This document shows positions 44,661 through 50,841 of a stretch of 64,000 bases of DNA, piece after piece. Source of the DNA: Antennarius striatus (taxonomy: Eukaryota > Chordata > Actinopteri > Lophiiformes > Antennariidae); the NCBI RefSeq assembly GCF_040054535.1, contig NC_090796.1, positions 16,721,501 through 16,785,500 of the forward strand, in the 5' to 3' direction. The notes under the pieces are model-generated. The model searched no databases, was not told where the DNA came from, and worked only from the letters and a program-made list of their open reading frames with translations. A program made the position numbers and the translations under genes. Position 1 is the stretch's first letter. The number at the start of each line of letters is the position of its first letter.

Positions 44661-46121
44661 GTCACCCATTACACCACCATCCTAACATTTATCCATTCAC
44701 TAGAAAATCCTGATTGTTGGTGAAAAACCTCTCATGTATTCTTCTTAATGCAGAAATATTTATTTAGAAAAACTCATGATTTGTACTTGAACAGAATTCC
44801 ACTGCGATCACAACTTTTCTTTTCAGATAAAGGGGGGCTGGGGTTGGACCGGAGCTGCAAAAACATTGAGTTTGAATGTCAGTCATTTTTTAACCCAGAT
44901 GGGACAACAGAAGGCTGCACCAGATCCAGGCAACAGGGGGTAAAGAGGACAACATGAAAAACAGAACTGGGTCGTTCTGCAGAGACAGAATCTGGGTGAT
45001 ACAAAACTGCTGAAATGTATTCCTAACTCCAGAAAAGAACAATTGCTGACGTGTTAAAAGAATCGGATCCCTAAAGATGAACCACCTGAGTGGAGACGAG
45101 TATCGTAAATCTATAGGAAGCTTCAGGAGGATCAACGGATGTGATCGGCAGATGTTCACCAGACCGTCAAAATGAAGCTGCTGCAATATTTTTACTGAGT
45201 CATCAATCAGAGGTGTCAGTTGGTTTGATATCAGACAGCCTCTCTCAATCTGGACTTTGTCATCAATCAATAAAGTGTGTCATTAATTCAAACTGAGTCA
45301 GAGATGCATTTAAAAATTGATTCAGTGTTAAATTTAGATTCAAACAGAGTATTTTTAAAAGTATTTTCCGACAAAACACCTCAGGAACAAAACAAATAAA
45401 CTTCAGGCCTGTTGAGTGAATGGCTCCAAATAAAGCTTCGACTTATTTAAAAATCATGTATAAATGATTAATTTTTAATGTGTGGCTGTAATGAAGACAC
45501 AAACTCACCCTCCTGTTTCAATGAATGACCTCCCTGAACATGCAGTTCTGTTCTGAGTTTTAAATTAAAAATAAATCAGCTGCTTGAATAGTGGTTTGAC
45601 AGGCTTGAGAGACTTATTTCCATTAAACTGATTATGCATCTAATATCTAGATTTGTGTTTTAAATTCAGAATAAATTATACACAGTTAAACAACAAACAG
45701 CATTTTTTAAATTGTCACTTTTCTTTAAAACTTTCAGGAAACAAGTCTTGAAAATAAGATTCACATAGTTGGAGAAAGGATGTAGTTTTATCTGTTAATG
45801 TTTTTCTGTCGTTTGAAAAAGGAAAGTAACGTTAGTGTGGATGAACTCGACTGGTGCAACACTTACCTCGACCACAACAGGGCGCAACAGCAAAATTTAA
45901 CAAAAATGATCTTAATCTTAACACGTTGTTGGTTTTTACATTTCTGCCTAAATTCACCATCTCTAACTGGTTTTGAGAGGTTATTCACCTCAATTTATGG
46001 ATATAGCTAAGAAAGAGTGGAAACAAAAAGTCTTTTATCCATATCCTTTCATTCAATTTTTTTCACAGGACATCAGGAACATGAATATTGATCGATCGAT
46101 CAGTTTTATCAGCTCCTTTTA

Positions 46122-47050
46122 TCAGTTACACAAGTCCTTCCCGCAGCAGGTGATGGTTAAAATCCCCGGCTGGTTCATCAGACTACAGTCCCTGGCCTCA
46201 AGGCATCCTTTGACGTAGTTGGGGTCTGTGGAAGCAAGACAGGAAGCCTCAGCAACCAAGAACAACGCTTCTCCTTACTGGTGCTATACTGGTACTACTG
46301 GTGTTATACTGGTACTACTGGAGCTATACTGGTACTACTGGTGCTACTGGTGCTACTGGGGCTATACTGGTGCTACTGGGGCTATACTGGTACTACTGGA
46401 GCTATACTGGTACTACTGGTGCTACTGGTGCTACTGGGGCTATACTGGTACTACTGGGGCTATACTGGTACTACTGGGGCTATACTGGTACTACTGGTGT
46501 AATACTGGTACTACTGGGGCTATACTGGTACTACTGGTGCTACTGGTGCTACTGGGGCTATACTGGTACTACTGGGGCTATTCTGGTACTACTGGTGCTA
46601 TACTGGTACTACTGGTGCTATACTGGTACTACTGGGGCTATACTGGTACTACTGGTGCTATTCTGGTACTACTGGTGCTATACTGGTACTACTGGTGCTA
46701 TACTGGTACTACTGGTGCTATACTGGTACTACTGGTGCTATTCTGGTACTACTGGTGTTACACTGGTACTACTGGGGCCCAGTGAGCTACTTACTGGATC
46801 CAACGTGGAAGATGACGCTGGCGCAGACGCTGTCGGGACCGACGCAGGTCTCCACAGGATTGGGGCAGTGCCTCTTTCCTCCACACCTACACCTCAACGC
46901 ATCACCTGCACAGGAGCACACAGGTTGGGTTAAATCAGCTCAAGCTTTGTTTGTTTGTTTGTTTGTTTGTTTGTTTGTTTGTTGATTGGAGGTTTACTCA
47001 CTCTGGCTGACAAACAGCAGAAGAAGAAGAGCACAGATCACAGCCTTCAT
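46122..47050 (-). CDS. Secreted Ly6/uPAR-domain protein, copy A
   Basis: Predicted small secreted three-finger (LU domain) protein. Exons 47050-47002, 46905-46795 and 46225-46122 give 87 aa in the classic Ly6 three-exon plan: signal peptide, fingers 1-2, finger 3. The signal is MKAVICALLLLLFVSQ. Ten cysteines sit at 22, 24, 30, 37, 44, 61, 67, 80, 81 and 86, ending CCGKDLCN, the LU-domain signature. The chain stops right after the last cysteine pair, so there is no GPI-anchor tail and the product should be secreted, like SLURP or Lynx-type modulators. Its target is unknown. Exon 3 differs clearly from copies B and C. The polyadenylation hexamer of the other copies is changed here to AATGAA at 46048-46053. 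I do not recognise an orthologue. Confidence 0.8.
46275..46779. repeat. Intronic minisatellite of Ly6 copy A (about 25 x 20 bp)
   Basis: Units of 20 bp such as TATACTGGTACTACTGGTGC, with 10-bp half-units, fill 505 of the 569 bases of intron 2. The array lacks stops in all plus-strand frames and creates a long false ORF rich in Tyr, Trp, Gly and Thr. Confidence 0.95.
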
Positions 47051-47851
47051 GTTTCCTCACGTCTGCAGAGAGAAGATCCGACACTGTTTTAGCTCCGTTA
47101 CCGTCTGTTGACTGAAGGCGTTGCTCCTGAACCGATGGGATGGATCTGGAGCTGGAGCTGCTCCTTTTTATCCTCCAGGCGTTCCATGTTTACAACGCTG
47201 CTCATTTTGGGTTTTGGAGGACGGGAAACAGTCGCTCCCCCAGGAACACAATGATCTTATTATCGAGGGTTTCATGTCTTAATAACAAAACACACCTTCA
47301 TAGGGAGGTTATAACACCAGGAATAACAGCTGGACTCTGTCCTGTCCTCTCTGGTTTTGACACTAAGTCTCTGAATCAACATGTTTGTTTTTACTTTGGC
47401 ACATATCAGGAACAGCAGTCAAAATTTCCTTTGTTAAGAAACACAGTCTGCTGTCAACAACAACGATCACATGACCTTAAACCCAGAAATACTCAGTCAT
47501 GGATTTAAATACAAATACATCTTTTATAGATTACATCTTCTGGCAAATAAATGAGTCCTCAACGTATGAACACAATGTTTTCAGATCGGATGTTCATAAG
47601 ATGAATTGTTCTTAAGTCGTTATTTAAAAAGTAAAGTCAGTGTGGATGAACTCGACTGGTGCTGACCACTGACATCGACCACAAGAGGGCGCACAGAAAG
47701 ACAAAACAGCAAAACTGTTAACACGTTGTTGGTTTTTACATTTCTGCCTAAATTCACCATCTTTAACTGTTTCTCAGAGGAGGGTTATTCACCTCGATTT
47801 ATGAAAAAAGCTAATAAAGAGTGTAAACAAAAAGTGTTTTTATCCATTTCC
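47051..47851. other. Spacer between Ly6 copies A and B
   Basis: Holds the promoter of copy A and the 3' flank of copy B. It is nearly identical to the spacer 48676-49476, and a CTCF-like CCACAAGAGGGCGC is at 47679-47692. No further gene. Confidence 0.6.
47163..47172 (-). promoter_or_regulatory. TATA-like box of Ly6 copy A
   Basis: GGATAAAAAG on the minus strand, about 115 bases before the ATG. The same element occurs before copies B (48790-48798) and C (50322-50331). Confidence 0.5.
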
Positions 47852-47857
47852 TTTATT
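47852..47857 (-). terminator. polyadenylation signal of Ly6 copy B
   Basis: Minus-strand AATAAA about 65 bases past the copy B stop; the same site is at 49477-49482 for copy C. Confidence 0.6.
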
Positions 47858-47918
47858 TAAATATTGTCACAGGACATCAGGAACATGAATATTGATCTAT
47901 CAGTTTTATCGGCTCCGT

Positions 47919-48675
47919 TTATCGGTTGCACTCGTTGGTCCTGCAGCAGGTGGCGGTTGAAATCCCCGGCTGGTTCATCTGACTACAGTCCCTGGCCTGA
48001 AGGCATCCCTTGAAGTAGCCGGGTCCTGTGGGAGCAAGACAGGAAGCCTCAGCAACCAAGAACAACGTTTCTCCTTACTGGTGCTATACTGGTACTACTG
48101 GTGTTATACTGGTACTACTGGTGTTATACTGGTACTACTGGTGCTATACTGGTACTACTGGTGCTATACTGGTACTACTGGTGTTATACTGGTACTACTG
48201 GTGCTACTGGTGCTACTGGGGCTATACTGGTACTACTGGTGCTATACTGGTACTACTGGTGCTATACTGGTACTACTGGTGCTATTCTGGTACTACTGGG
48301 GCTATACTGGTACTACTGGTGCTATACTGGTACTACTGGTGCTATTCTGGTACTACTGGGGCTATTCTGGTACTACTGGGGCTATTCTGGTACTACTGGT
48401 GCTACTGGGGCCCAGTGAGCTACTTACTGGATCCAACGTGGAAGATGACGCTGGCGCAGACGCTGTCGGGACCGACGCAGGTCTCCACAGGATTGGGGCA
48501 GTGCCTCTTTCCTCCACACCTACACCTCAACGCATCACCTGCACAGGAGCACACAGGTTGGGTTAAATCAGCTCAAGCTTTGTTTGTTTGTTTGTTTGTT
48601 TGTTTGTTGATTGGAGGTTTACTCACTCTGGCTGACAAACAGCAGAAGAAGAAGAGCACAGATCACAGCCTTCAT
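47919..48675 (-). CDS. Secreted Ly6/uPAR-domain protein, copy B
   Basis: Exons 48675-48627, 48538-48428 and 48025-47919 give 88 aa with the same phases as copy A. Exons 1 and 2 encode the same residues as copy A. Exon 3 differs: it reads PGYFKGCLQARDCSQMN, then TATCCRTNECNR, so finger 3 loses the Lys-Asp-Leu of copy A and gains a final Arg. All ten LU-domain cysteines are kept and the terminal CC-X4-CN pattern is intact. There is no GPI signal. The TATA-like box is at 48790-48798 and AATAAA at 47852-47857, so the gene looks complete and expressible. Its function is unknown; it is inferred to be a secreted receptor modulator by fold. Confidence 0.8.
48075..48410. repeat. Intronic minisatellite of Ly6 copy B (about 17 x 20 bp)
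   Basis: The same TATACTGGTACTACTGGTGC unit as copy A. It fills 336 of the 402 bases of intron 2. Confidence 0.95.
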
Positions 48676-49476
48676 GTTTCCTCACGTCTGCAGAGAGAAG
48701 ATCCGACACTGTTTTAGCTCTGTTACCGTCTGTTGACTAAAGGCGTTGCTCCTGAACCGATGGGATGGATCTGGAGCTGGAGCTGCTCCTTTTTATCCTC
48801 CAGGCGTTCCATGTTTACAACGCTGCTCATTTTGGGTTTTGGAGGACGGGAAACAGTCGCTCCCCCAGGAACACAATGATCTGATGATCGAGGGTTTCAT
48901 GTCTTAATAACAAAACACACCTTCATAGGGAGGTTATAACACCAGGAATAACAGCTGGACTCTGTCCTGTCCTCTCTGGTTTTGACACTAAGTCTCTGAA
49001 TCAACATGTTTGTTTTTACTTTGGCACAAATCAGGAACAGCAGTCAAAATTTCCTTTGTTAAGAAACTCAGTCTGCTGTCAACAACAACGATCACATGAC
49101 CTTAAACCCAGAAATACTCAGTCATGGATTTAAATACAAATACATCTTTTATAGAGTACATCTTCTGGCAAATAAATGAGTCCTCAACGTATGAACACAA
49201 TGTATTCAGATCGGATGTTCATAAGATGATTTGTTCTTAAGTCGTTATTTAAAAAGTAAAGTCAGTGTGGATGAACTCGACTGGTGCTGACCACTGACCT
49301 CGACCACAAGAGGGCGCACAGAAAGACAAAACAGCAAAACTGTTAACACGTTGTTGGTTTTTACATTTCTGCCTAAATTCACCATCTTTAACTGTTTCTC
49401 AGAGGAGGGTTATTCACCTCGATTTATGAAAAAAGCTAATAAAGAGTGTAAACAAAAAGTGTTTTTATCCATTTCC
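48676..49476. other. Spacer between Ly6 copies B and C
   Basis: Near-identical to 47051-47851, with only scattered base changes. It carries the copy B promoter, the copy C 3' flank and a CTCF-like CCACAAGAGGGCGC at 49303-49316. Confidence 0.6.
48790..48798 (-). promoter_or_regulatory. TATA-like box of Ly6 copy B
   Basis: GGATAAAAA on the minus strand at the same distance from the ATG as in copies A and C. Confidence 0.5.
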
Positions 49477-49482
49477 TTTATT
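49477..49482 (-). terminator. polyadenylation signal of Ly6 copy C
   Basis: Minus-strand AATAAA at the position equivalent to the copy B signal. Confidence 0.6.
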
Positions 49483-49543
49483 TAAATATTGTCACAGGAC
49501 ATCAGGAACATGAATATTGATCTATCAGTTTTATCGGCTCCGT

Positions 49544-50208
49544 TTATCGGTTGCACTCGTTGGTCCTGCAGCAGGTGGCGGTTGAAATCCCCGGCTGGTT
49601 CATCTGACTGCACTGCCTGGCCTGAAGGCATCCCTTGAAGTAGCCGGGTCCTGTGGGAGCAAGACAGGAAGCCTCAGCAACCAAGAACAACGCTTCTCCT
49701 TACTGGTGCTATACTGGTACTACTGGTGCTACTGGTGCTACTGGGGCTATACTGGTACTACTGGTGTTATACTGGTACTACTGGTGCTATTCTGGTACTA
49801 CTGGTGCTATACTCGTACTACTGGGGCTATACTGGTACTACTGGTGCTATACTGGTACTACTGGTGCTATACTGGTACTACTGGTGCTATACTGGTACTA
49901 CTGGTGCTATTCTGGTACTAGTGGTGCTACTGGGGCCCAGTGAGCTACTTACTGGATCCAACGTGGAAGATGACGCTGGCACAGACGCTGTCGGGACCGA
50001 CGCAGGTCTCCACAGGATTGGGGCAGTGCCTCTTTCCTCCACACCTACACCTCAACGCATCACCTGCACAGGAGCACACAGGTTGGGTTAAATCAGCTCA
50101 AGCTTCGTTTGTTTGTTTGTTTGTTTGTATGTTTGTTTGTTGGTCGCAGGTTTACTCACTCTGGCTGACAAACAGCAGAAGAAGAAGAGCACAGATCACA
50201 GCCTTCAT
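49544..50208 (-). CDS. Secreted Ly6/uPAR-domain protein, copy C
   Basis: Exons 50208-50160, 50063-49953 and 49650-49544 give 88 aa. The protein is almost the same as copy B; the visible change in exon 3 is ARQCSQMN in place of ARDCSQMN (Asp to Gln). Exon 2 has one silent change. All ten cysteines, the signal peptide, TATA-like box (50322-50331) and AATAAA (49477-49482) are present. The near-identity of the B and C genes and their left flanks points to a recent duplication or gene conversion. Function unknown, as for copies A and B. Confidence 0.8.
49700..49935. repeat. Intronic minisatellite of Ly6 copy C (about 12 x 20 bp)
   Basis: Same unit as in copies A and B. It fills about 236 of the 302 bases of intron 2. 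Confidence 0.95.
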
Positions 50209-50321
50209 GTTTCCTCACGTCTGCAGAGAGAAGATCCGACACTGTTTTAGCTCCGTTACCGTCTGTTGACTGAAGGCGTTGCTCCTGAACCGATGGGATG
50301 GATCTGGAGCTGGAGCTGCTC

Positions 50322-50331
50322 CTTTTTATCC
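50322..50331 (-). promoter_or_regulatory. TATA-like box of Ly6 copy C
   Basis: GGATAAAAAG on the minus strand, about 115 bases before the ATG. Confidence 0.5.
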
Positions 50332-50841
50332 TCCAGGTGCTCCATGTTTACTACGCTGCTCATTCTGGGTTTTCCTCAGTGACTCATGGAGGACGGGAAA
50401 CAGTCGCTCCCCCAGGAACACAACGATCTGATTATCAAGGGTTTCATGTCGTAATAACCAAACACACCTTCATAGGGAGGTTATAACACCAGGAATAACA
50501 GCTGGACTCTGTCCTGTCCTCTCTGGTCTTGACAGGAAATCTCTGAATCATCATGTTTGTTTTACTTTGGCACAAATCAGGAACAGCAGTCAAAATTTCC
50601 TCTGTTAAGAAACACAGTCTGCTGTCAACAACAATGATCACATGACCTTAAACCCAGAGATACTCAGTCATGGATTTAAATACAAATACATCTTTTATAT
50701 TGTAAATAAGTCCTCAACGTATGAACAAAATTGTTTCAGATCAGTTGTTCAATAGATGAATTGTTCTTAAGTCGTTATTTATTAAATTTCAATCTATAAT
50801 CTCCATTTGAGGTCATTTAAATGTCATTATAATTTATAATA

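Follow-up and report, generated by a model that had tools for sequence, protein, structure and literature searches.

The window, a 64,000-nucleotide stretch of the Antennarius striatus genome (contig NC_090796.1), carries on its minus strand three complete side-by-side genes that appear to encode small secreted proteins of the Ly6/uPAR (LU) type, the middle of which (gene 2) appears to be the product of a crossover between minisatellites; we give this joint reading a probability of about 0.8. As an intact Ly6-type trio with an apparently hybrid middle gene, the locus is a tidy, fresh example of an already known kind of gene cluster. Literature searches showed no report of it among the papers listed (for the flanking genes, 20 of 48), and an entry in a fish proteome database may well exist.

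Gene structure and family assignment

Each gene has three coding exons and two phase-1 introns bounded by GT...AG, and no frame break occurs in any of the three, giving products of 87 (gene 1), 88 (gene 2) and 88 residues (gene 3). The TATA-like GGATAAAAAGG lies 123 nt 5' of the ATG in all three alike, and an AATAAA follows genes 2 and 3, whereas neither AATAAA nor ATTAAA is present within the stretch scanned for gene 1.

47163..47173, minus strand: TATA-like GGATAAAAAGG of gene 1
47002..47050, minus strand: gene 1 exon 1, coding part (signal peptide); splicing model
46795..46905, minus strand: gene 1 exon 2 (finger I and first half of finger II); splicing model, genome exon search
46122..46225, minus strand: gene 1 exon 3, coding part (remainder of finger II, finger III, stop); splicing model, genome exon search
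48788..48798, minus strand: TATA-like GGATAAAAAGG of gene 2
48627..48675, minus strand: gene 2 exon 1, coding part; splicing model
48428..48538, minus strand: gene 2 exon 2; splicing model, genome exon search
47919..48025, minus strand: gene 2 exon 3, coding part; splicing model, genome exon search
47852..47857, minus strand: AATAAA 3' of gene 2
50321..50331, minus strand: TATA-like GGATAAAAAGG of gene 3
50160..50208, minus strand: gene 3 exon 1, coding part; splicing model
49953..50063, minus strand: gene 3 exon 2; splicing model, genome exon search
49544..49650, minus strand: gene 3 exon 3, coding part; splicing model, genome exon search
49477..49482, minus strand: AATAAA 3' of gene 3

The predicted mature proteins (68-69 residues, pI 8.1-9.0) each have ten cysteines in LU order, opening with the spacing C-x-C and with CC and C-N near the end, while an eleventh cysteine lies inside the signal peptide, whose exon is the same in genes 2 and 3 as in gene 1. 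The chains end at C-N (gene 1) or C-N-R (genes 2 and 3) with no hydrophobic tail, and mean hydropathy in gene 1 is 3.4 over residues 3-14 and 0.36 over the last 20. Judged on hydropathy and chain ends, the products combine a predicted signal peptide with the absence of a GPI signal, as do secreted LU proteins of the SLURP/Ly2 type. According to a review, LU genes have three exons, their introns are mostly of phase 1, and one intron falls at the tip of loop 2 (PMC6600238); intron 2 of the trio interrupts the domain after Cys 5 and before Cys 6, which, judged from cysteine order, is that tip. This reconstruction of exons and proteins bears out an earlier note on the same DNA, which had claimed three complete genes with a signal exon, ten LU cysteines and no GPI tail, as well as intact splice sites, TATA-like boxes and open frames.

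The window contains three occurrences of the last-exon pattern C..C..CC..CN, whereas 100 dinucleotide-preserving shuffles average 0.01 and never give more than 1, and the three places of a slightly altered form of it are genes 1, 2 and 3. Family scores we grade as suggestive only. Against PF00021, gene 1 reaches 24.0 bits over residues 21-87, 0.8 bits under a cut-off (24.8) that is a score threshold and no biological feature, and genes 2 and 3 are without a listed match even at E 10. PF00087 (Toxin_TOLIP, snake-type three-finger toxins) gives 20.1 bits for gene 1 and 15.2 for gene 3, under its cut-off of 21.2, and no match for gene 2; the unrelated family Nodulin_late matches all three weakly (11.7-15.8 bits, cut-off 30.4), and the prokaryote library NCBIfam none. 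Among solved chains gene 1 has no match at E 10, while a profile of the three proteins has eight, of which seven are Ly6- or BMP-receptor-type (E 0.45-1.0) and stand behind one unrelated chain at E 0.076. The ectodomain of the BMP type I receptor BMPR1A shares the C-x-C start in an alignment spanning residues 20-87, but the match is not significant (E 0.6-0.9) and the trio lacks a membrane or kinase part. Going by how its cysteines are ordered and its exons laid out, the trio is of the Ly6/uPAR kind, though diverged. Small secreted Ly6 proteins easily escape standard family models, and here none of the three reaches a Pfam cut-off.

The placement of the trio between rab5c and kcnh4, made in the earlier note, stands: for a 39-residue piece of the Rab gene the top match is Rab-5C, narrowly ahead of Rab-5A (54.0 vs 52.0 bits), and an 80-residue piece of the channel gene has as its best match 3ukn, a subfamily-H potassium channel. 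One paper, in a passage that lists only shared genes, has rab5c and kcnh4 as neighbours in human, mouse and gar (PMC13398235); human may, as the earlier note supposed, carry no Ly6-type gene between them. Genome-wide searches with exon 2 and with exon 3 recovered, among the best candidates scored, only the three copies at useful scores; a further exon-2 candidate (L005, E 0.303) has an internal stop and looks like chance. A genome-wide run of PF00021 yielded a single place with E of 0.001 or less and, from 13 scored candidates, 11 places with E of 10 or less. The trio is absent from these, exons being scored one by one, which makes this search insensitive to genes of this kind. One of the 11 (L018) looks by eye like a retroelement frame. 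Channel-exon paralogues occupy 17 places in the genome, and none of the 11 lies near the four next-best of these, a weak check made on coordinates only.

LU exons elsewhere in the genome (C3, C4, C9 and C14) share C..C..CC..CN with the trio, and several lie in small groups. Unlike the trio, however, eight of the ten last-exon frames read continue, by eye, into a hydrophobic tail; one (L009) is ambiguous, and one of the two in L001 has no such tail. The finger-I stretches differ likewise, four of five having C-x2-C, one having no second cysteine and none having the C-x-C of the trio.

The probable hybrid origin of the middle gene

Intron 2 of each gene holds a 20-bp minisatellite that is nearly unique to the locus, within which 47 of the 51 genome matches to its unit fall.

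46276..46775, no strand: 20-bp minisatellite, gene 1 intron 2, 25.3 copies
48076..48404, no strand: 20-bp minisatellite, gene 2 intron 2, 16.5 copies; putative crossover joint, gene-1-like 5' half / gene-3-like 3' half
49701..49929, no strand: 20-bp minisatellite, gene 3 intron 2, 11.6 copies

Long plus-strand frames across these arrays (up to 239 residues) were rejected as mere translations of the repeat.

Gene 2 is like gene 1 in its 5' half and like gene 3 in its 3' half, with a difference of about 1% in both. Counted over aligned positions with gap columns and the minisatellite excluded, genes 1 and 2 differ at 9 of 838 on the 5' side and at 60 of 377 on the 3' side, the corresponding counts for genes 2 and 3 being 43 of 816 and 4 of 386; genes 1 and 3 are 6% apart upstream and 15-21% apart in the 3' half. 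The two low rates, 1.07% and 1.04% (p = 1.0), fit what a single duplication predicts, and self-comparison at a shift of 1625 bp gives, between 47000 and 48099, an identity of 97-100 in every 100 bp. This pattern is accounted for by one unequal crossover between minisatellites. The history, which we infer with good support from the sequence, would have started from an older gene pair, the ancestors of genes 1 and 3, whose two intron-2 minisatellites paired with each other out of register. Crossover there would have doubled a stretch of about 1625 bp, turning two genes into three and leaving gene 2 as a hybrid of gene 1's 5' half and gene 3's 3' half.

A block of 1625 bp present twice, about 1% apart and with its joint in a minisatellite, is also what would be expected of wrongly joined alleles, had the assembler linked two haplotypes of two genes each within the repeat. 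We think this improbable, as the array occupies less than 5 kb within an 18.29-Mb contig, short enough for a modern long read to cross, and as the three minisatellite copy numbers are all unequal. A genuine crossover is preferred, and the locus offers a readable case of exon mixing in the family, with a hybrid gene jointed in an intron minisatellite. That this minisatellite is moreover a standing crossover site, at which an unvarying finger I/II exon is shuffled with a finger III exon that changes, is a speculative extension that we rate as rather unlikely. Were it true, the number of genes and the repertoire of secreted three-finger proteins would vary among individuals of the species, and the molecular site at which three-finger genes exchange exons would be directly visible; a copy number that differed among individuals would also provide a natural test of the role of finger III.

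Constraint and change among the exons

The finger I/II exon is frozen across the trio, while the finger III exon comes in two versions; exon 3 distinguishes gene 1 from the other two, and codon 66 distinguishes gene 2 from gene 3. In a comparison of gene 1 with gene 3, the core promoter and exons 1-2 carry one change in 283 nt against 39 in 541 in the adjoining noncoding DNA. The coding positions of exons 1-2 carry one change in 160, synonymous, against 39 in 664 noncoding (p = 0.003). These tests presuppose that gene conversion acts alike on all parts. Together with the gene anatomy, the first of these comparisons supports the earlier reading of the genes as secreted, Ly6-type and probably functional. 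It is very unlikely that they are instead decaying duplicates, pseudogenes intact by chance. Such decay would agree with the missing AATAAA or ATTAAA of gene 1 and with the pace of exon 3, which is about that of the 3' flank (22/104 vs 40/273 changes, p = 0.16), but not with the single synonymous change in the coding part of exons 1-2, nor with the unbroken frame of every copy and the retention of all five exon-3 cysteines, two of them despite synonymous change.

A test for positive selection on exon 3 gave no significant result: dN exceeds dS between genes 1 and 3 (0.258 and 0.180, p = 0.47) and between genes 1 and 2 (0.224 and 0.124, p = 0.22), in neither case significantly, and nonsynonymous sites set against the 3' flank give a one-sided p of 0.077.

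Possible functions and comparison with known systems

The zebrafish genes Ly2.1-3, as described in PMC5240587, resemble the trio in being three in number and in encoding a signal peptide and one ten-cysteine LU domain, in secreted and cationic products of 91, 95 and 94 residues, against 87-88 here, a likeness of features. The refolded zebrafish proteins are reported to be active against Gram-negative bacteria (PMC5240587). By analogy, an epithelium might release the trio products, which would act on microbe or host-cell surfaces in the Ly2.1-3 manner, with finger III choosing the target, a suggestion we make tentatively. We regard as somewhat doubtful a role as receptor modulators, in which SLURP- or prototoxin-like secreted proteins would bind nicotinic or other ligand-gated receptors; the trio has the secreted single LU domain of members described with such activity (PMC6600238) and the weak Toxin_TOLIP matches of genes 1 and 3, but no match above any family cut-off and no significant solved relative. 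Unlikely, in turn, is a role in reproduction, with the products acting on gametes as Ly6 proteins of seminal or ovarian fluid. Peptide sequencing and RNA-seq are reported to have found a Ly6/uPAR-like protein of an estimated 91-94 residues in catfish seminal vesicle fluid (PMC12091868), and a fast-changing exon in an open frame is consistent with such a role, though not specific to it; yet the catfish RT-PCR band was only faint, the protein is not fully identified according to the authors of that study (PMC12091868), and the surplus of amino-acid replacements in exon 3 falls short of significance.

Snake three-finger toxins with exon segment switching (ASSET) are a further known system to set beside the trio. 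Nothing suggests a venom role for the trio. As described in PMC2711939, these toxins share with it a cysteine-pattern family, three exons, a conserved signal exon and a concentration of change in the exons of the mature domain. In ASSET, however, short segments within exons II and III vary (PMC2711939), whereas in the trio exon 2 is frozen, exon 3 differs over its full length, and the joint is in an intron minisatellite.

Three complete genes of an ordinary kind

The three tandem Ly6-type genes described in the earlier note (gene 1, gene 2 and gene 3, here the trio) are real and were well read; the genes are of an ordinary kind, and it is their recombination history that is the neat part. As claimed, all three are complete. 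Each has three coding exons (49, 111 and 104-107 nt) separated by two phase-1 introns with GT-AG borders, and the open frames span 87 (gene 1), 88 (gene 2) and 88 (gene 3) codons.

47050-46122, minus strand: exons of gene 1
46276-46775: 20-bp minisatellite in gene 1 intron 2, 25.3 copies
48675-47919, minus strand: exons of gene 2
48076-48404: 20-bp minisatellite in gene 2 intron 2, 16.5 copies
50208-49544, minus strand: exons of gene 3
49701-49929: 20-bp minisatellite in gene 3 intron 2, 11.6 copies

The signal exon, ten cysteines and missing GPI tail reported earlier were likewise found: exon 1 encodes a hydrophobic signal (mean hydropathy 3.4, residues 3-14), and the mature chain of 68-69 residues carries ten cysteines and ends in C-N or C-N-R, a C-terminal tail for a GPI anchor being absent from all three chains. 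With cleavage after residue 19 assumed, the computed charge is +2 (gene 1), +5 (gene 2) and +6 (gene 3), and the pI 8.1-9.0. Two protein types are present, gene 1 versus genes 2 and 3, the latter pair differing at residue 66 only. AATAAA is present for genes 2 and 3; a scan of 45700-46122 found neither AATAAA nor ATTAAA for gene 1.

The trio, in tandem on the minus strand of the window (C21:16721501-16785500), is flanked by a Rab gene and a subfamily H potassium channel gene, in line with the proposed position between rab5c and kcnh4. A 39-aa piece of the former best matches Rab-5C (1z0d, 54.0 bits; Rab-5A, 52.0 bits), in agreement with the Pfam match of this exon to Ras (25.7 bits), and an 80-aa piece of the latter best matches 3ukn (E 1.4e-24), which we take to be an ELK-type fish channel. 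Two of the four channel frames agree with this identity in Pfam, one above its cut-off, and the remaining two are without any Pfam match.

Family assignment and relatives in the genome

We assign the trio to the LU (Ly6/uPAR three-finger domain) family chiefly for its order of cysteines, its exon arrangement and the phase of its introns; scores count for less, as every Pfam match lies below cut-off. Gene 1 matches u-PAR/Ly-6 best (24.0 bits, cut-off 24.8), followed by the snake-toxin-like family Toxin_TOLIP (20.1, cut-off 21.2), Nodulin_late (15.8, cut-off 30.4) and then CD59, Activin_recp and Toxin_cobra-type, all under cut-off; gene 2 matches Nodulin_late alone (14.9 bits, cut-off 30.4), and gene 3 Toxin_TOLIP (15.2 bits) and Nodulin_late (11.7 bits). 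Within the window there are three instances of the last-exon cysteine pattern, versus an average of 0.01 and never more than 1 in 100 dinucleotide shuffles, and a slightly different form of it finds three places, all in the trio. The layout matches that described for LU genes in a review (PMC6600238), namely three exons, mostly phase-1 introns and an intron 2 placed at the loop 2 tip. When the trio is aligned with ten last-exon peptides from elsewhere in the genome, six columns (C, C, CC, C and N) are invariant, a likeness and no independent test, as these peptides were chosen for their C-N end. Gene 1 matched none of the solved chains, and a profile of the three genes gave eight matches, none significant (an unrelated chain, E 0.076; prostate stem cell antigen, 0.45; six BMP-receptor-type chains, 0.6-1.0). 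The first two cysteines are spaced C-x-C in the trio; elsewhere in the genome four of the five finger-I stretches read have C-x2-C and one has no second cysteine. This C-x-C start also occurs in the BMP type I receptor chains matched by the profile, a likeness to which we give no weight.

Searches of the genome (548 Mb, 42 contigs) with exon 3 and with the 3' flank each found three places, all in the trio, and a 37-aa exon 2 query found four, three of them in the trio, these counts being among the best candidates scored, so that distant relatives may be missed. The fourth exon 2 place was rejected as chance-like (E 0.303, internal stop). Other LU exons, on contigs C3, C4, C9 and C14, are distant, and eight of the ten last-exon frames read there continue, as judged by eye, into a hydrophobic tail. 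One such place, L001 (G000:C4:19503349-19506534, minus strand), holds two adjacent LU frames, one apparently without the second finger-I cysteine, and L009-L017 (C3, C9, C11, C14) comprise several small LU-exon groups with hydrophobic tails on most last exons read. The far upstream part of the gene 1 unit (47554-47626, about 73 nt) is a dispersed repeat: among 132 candidates 40 matches were scored, and 37 of these are outside the trio.

Gene 2 as a hybrid, and uneven constraint

Judged from its sequence, gene 2 is a hybrid joined in or beside the intron 2 minisatellite, because its 5' half (the gene unit on that side of the minisatellite) agrees with gene 1 and its 3' half with gene 3. In pooled piecewise comparisons, which exclude gap columns and the minisatellite, genes 1 and 2 differ at 9/838 positions in the 5' half and 60/377 in the 3' half, and genes 2 and 3 at 43/816 and 4/386, respectively. 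The minisatellite unit is nearly unique to the trio, which has 47 of its 51 matches in the genome at two or fewer mismatches. Among the three genes, aligned positions of the minisatellite differ by 3.3-4.7%, and the alignments contain many gaps. A single block duplicated once would create a gene 2 with a gene-1-like 5' half and a gene-3-like 3' half, and predicts both the near-equal low rates (1.07% and 1.04%, Fisher p = 1.0) and the identity seen at a straight shift of 1625 bp (97-100 identities per 100 bp, 47000 to 48099). The same difference of about 1% between the duplicated blocks is within the range that one individual's alleles may show, and a false assembly join in place of a true third gene is a possible alternative. 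Genes 2 and 3 differ at four 3'-half positions, three of which fall within six bases (49610-49615 versus 47985-47990) and give the sole residue change, at codon 66; the origin would be a short conversion event or locally clustered mutations.

The older pair, genes 1 and 3, differ by 6.0% in upstream sequence and 5.2% in intron 1 but by 14.7% in downstream sequence and 21.2% in exon 3, an unevenness that hints at an earlier exchange in their 5' half. Exons 1-2 (exon 2 encoding finger I and the first half of finger II) differ at 1/160 positions, synonymously, versus 39/664 in 5' noncoding sequence (p = 0.003), and 0/123 differ across the TATA-like box and the leader that follows it; box, leader and exons 1-2 together give 1/283 versus 39/541 noncoding, with p = 1.2e-6 flattered by a box boundary picked after viewing the alignment. 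Exon 3, encoding the rest of finger II and finger III, differs at 22/104 versus 40/273 in the 3' flank (p = 0.16; nonsynonymous sites versus flank, one-sided p = 0.077), with dN 0.258 and dS 0.180 (p = 0.47), and retains all five cysteines, two of them with a synonymous codon change. These p values assume independent sites and regions equally free of conversion. The plain reading is that the first half would be fixed, and the second free or shifting.

Possible function and known parallels

The closest described parallel of the trio is zebrafish Ly2.1-3, which one study (PMC5240587) describes as secreted, cationic, ten-cysteine proteins of 91-95 aa from digestive tract, liver and pancreas; refolded, they bound LPS and killed Gram-negative bacteria, though less strongly than did a standard antibiotic. 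We would give a putative host-defence or epithelial role of the products roughly one chance in three. Putative receptor modulation is in our judgement slightly less likely than that, and a putative reproductive role unlikely; a Ly6-like protein is reported from the seminal vesicle fluid of a catfish (PMC12091868), although its authors regard it as not fully identified.

The exon-level change in the trio recalls segment switching in snake three-finger toxins, where recombination did not satisfy the authors as an explanation for the short switched segments (PMC2711939). In the trio a recombination joint is visible, but its position is intronic and an entire exon is moved.
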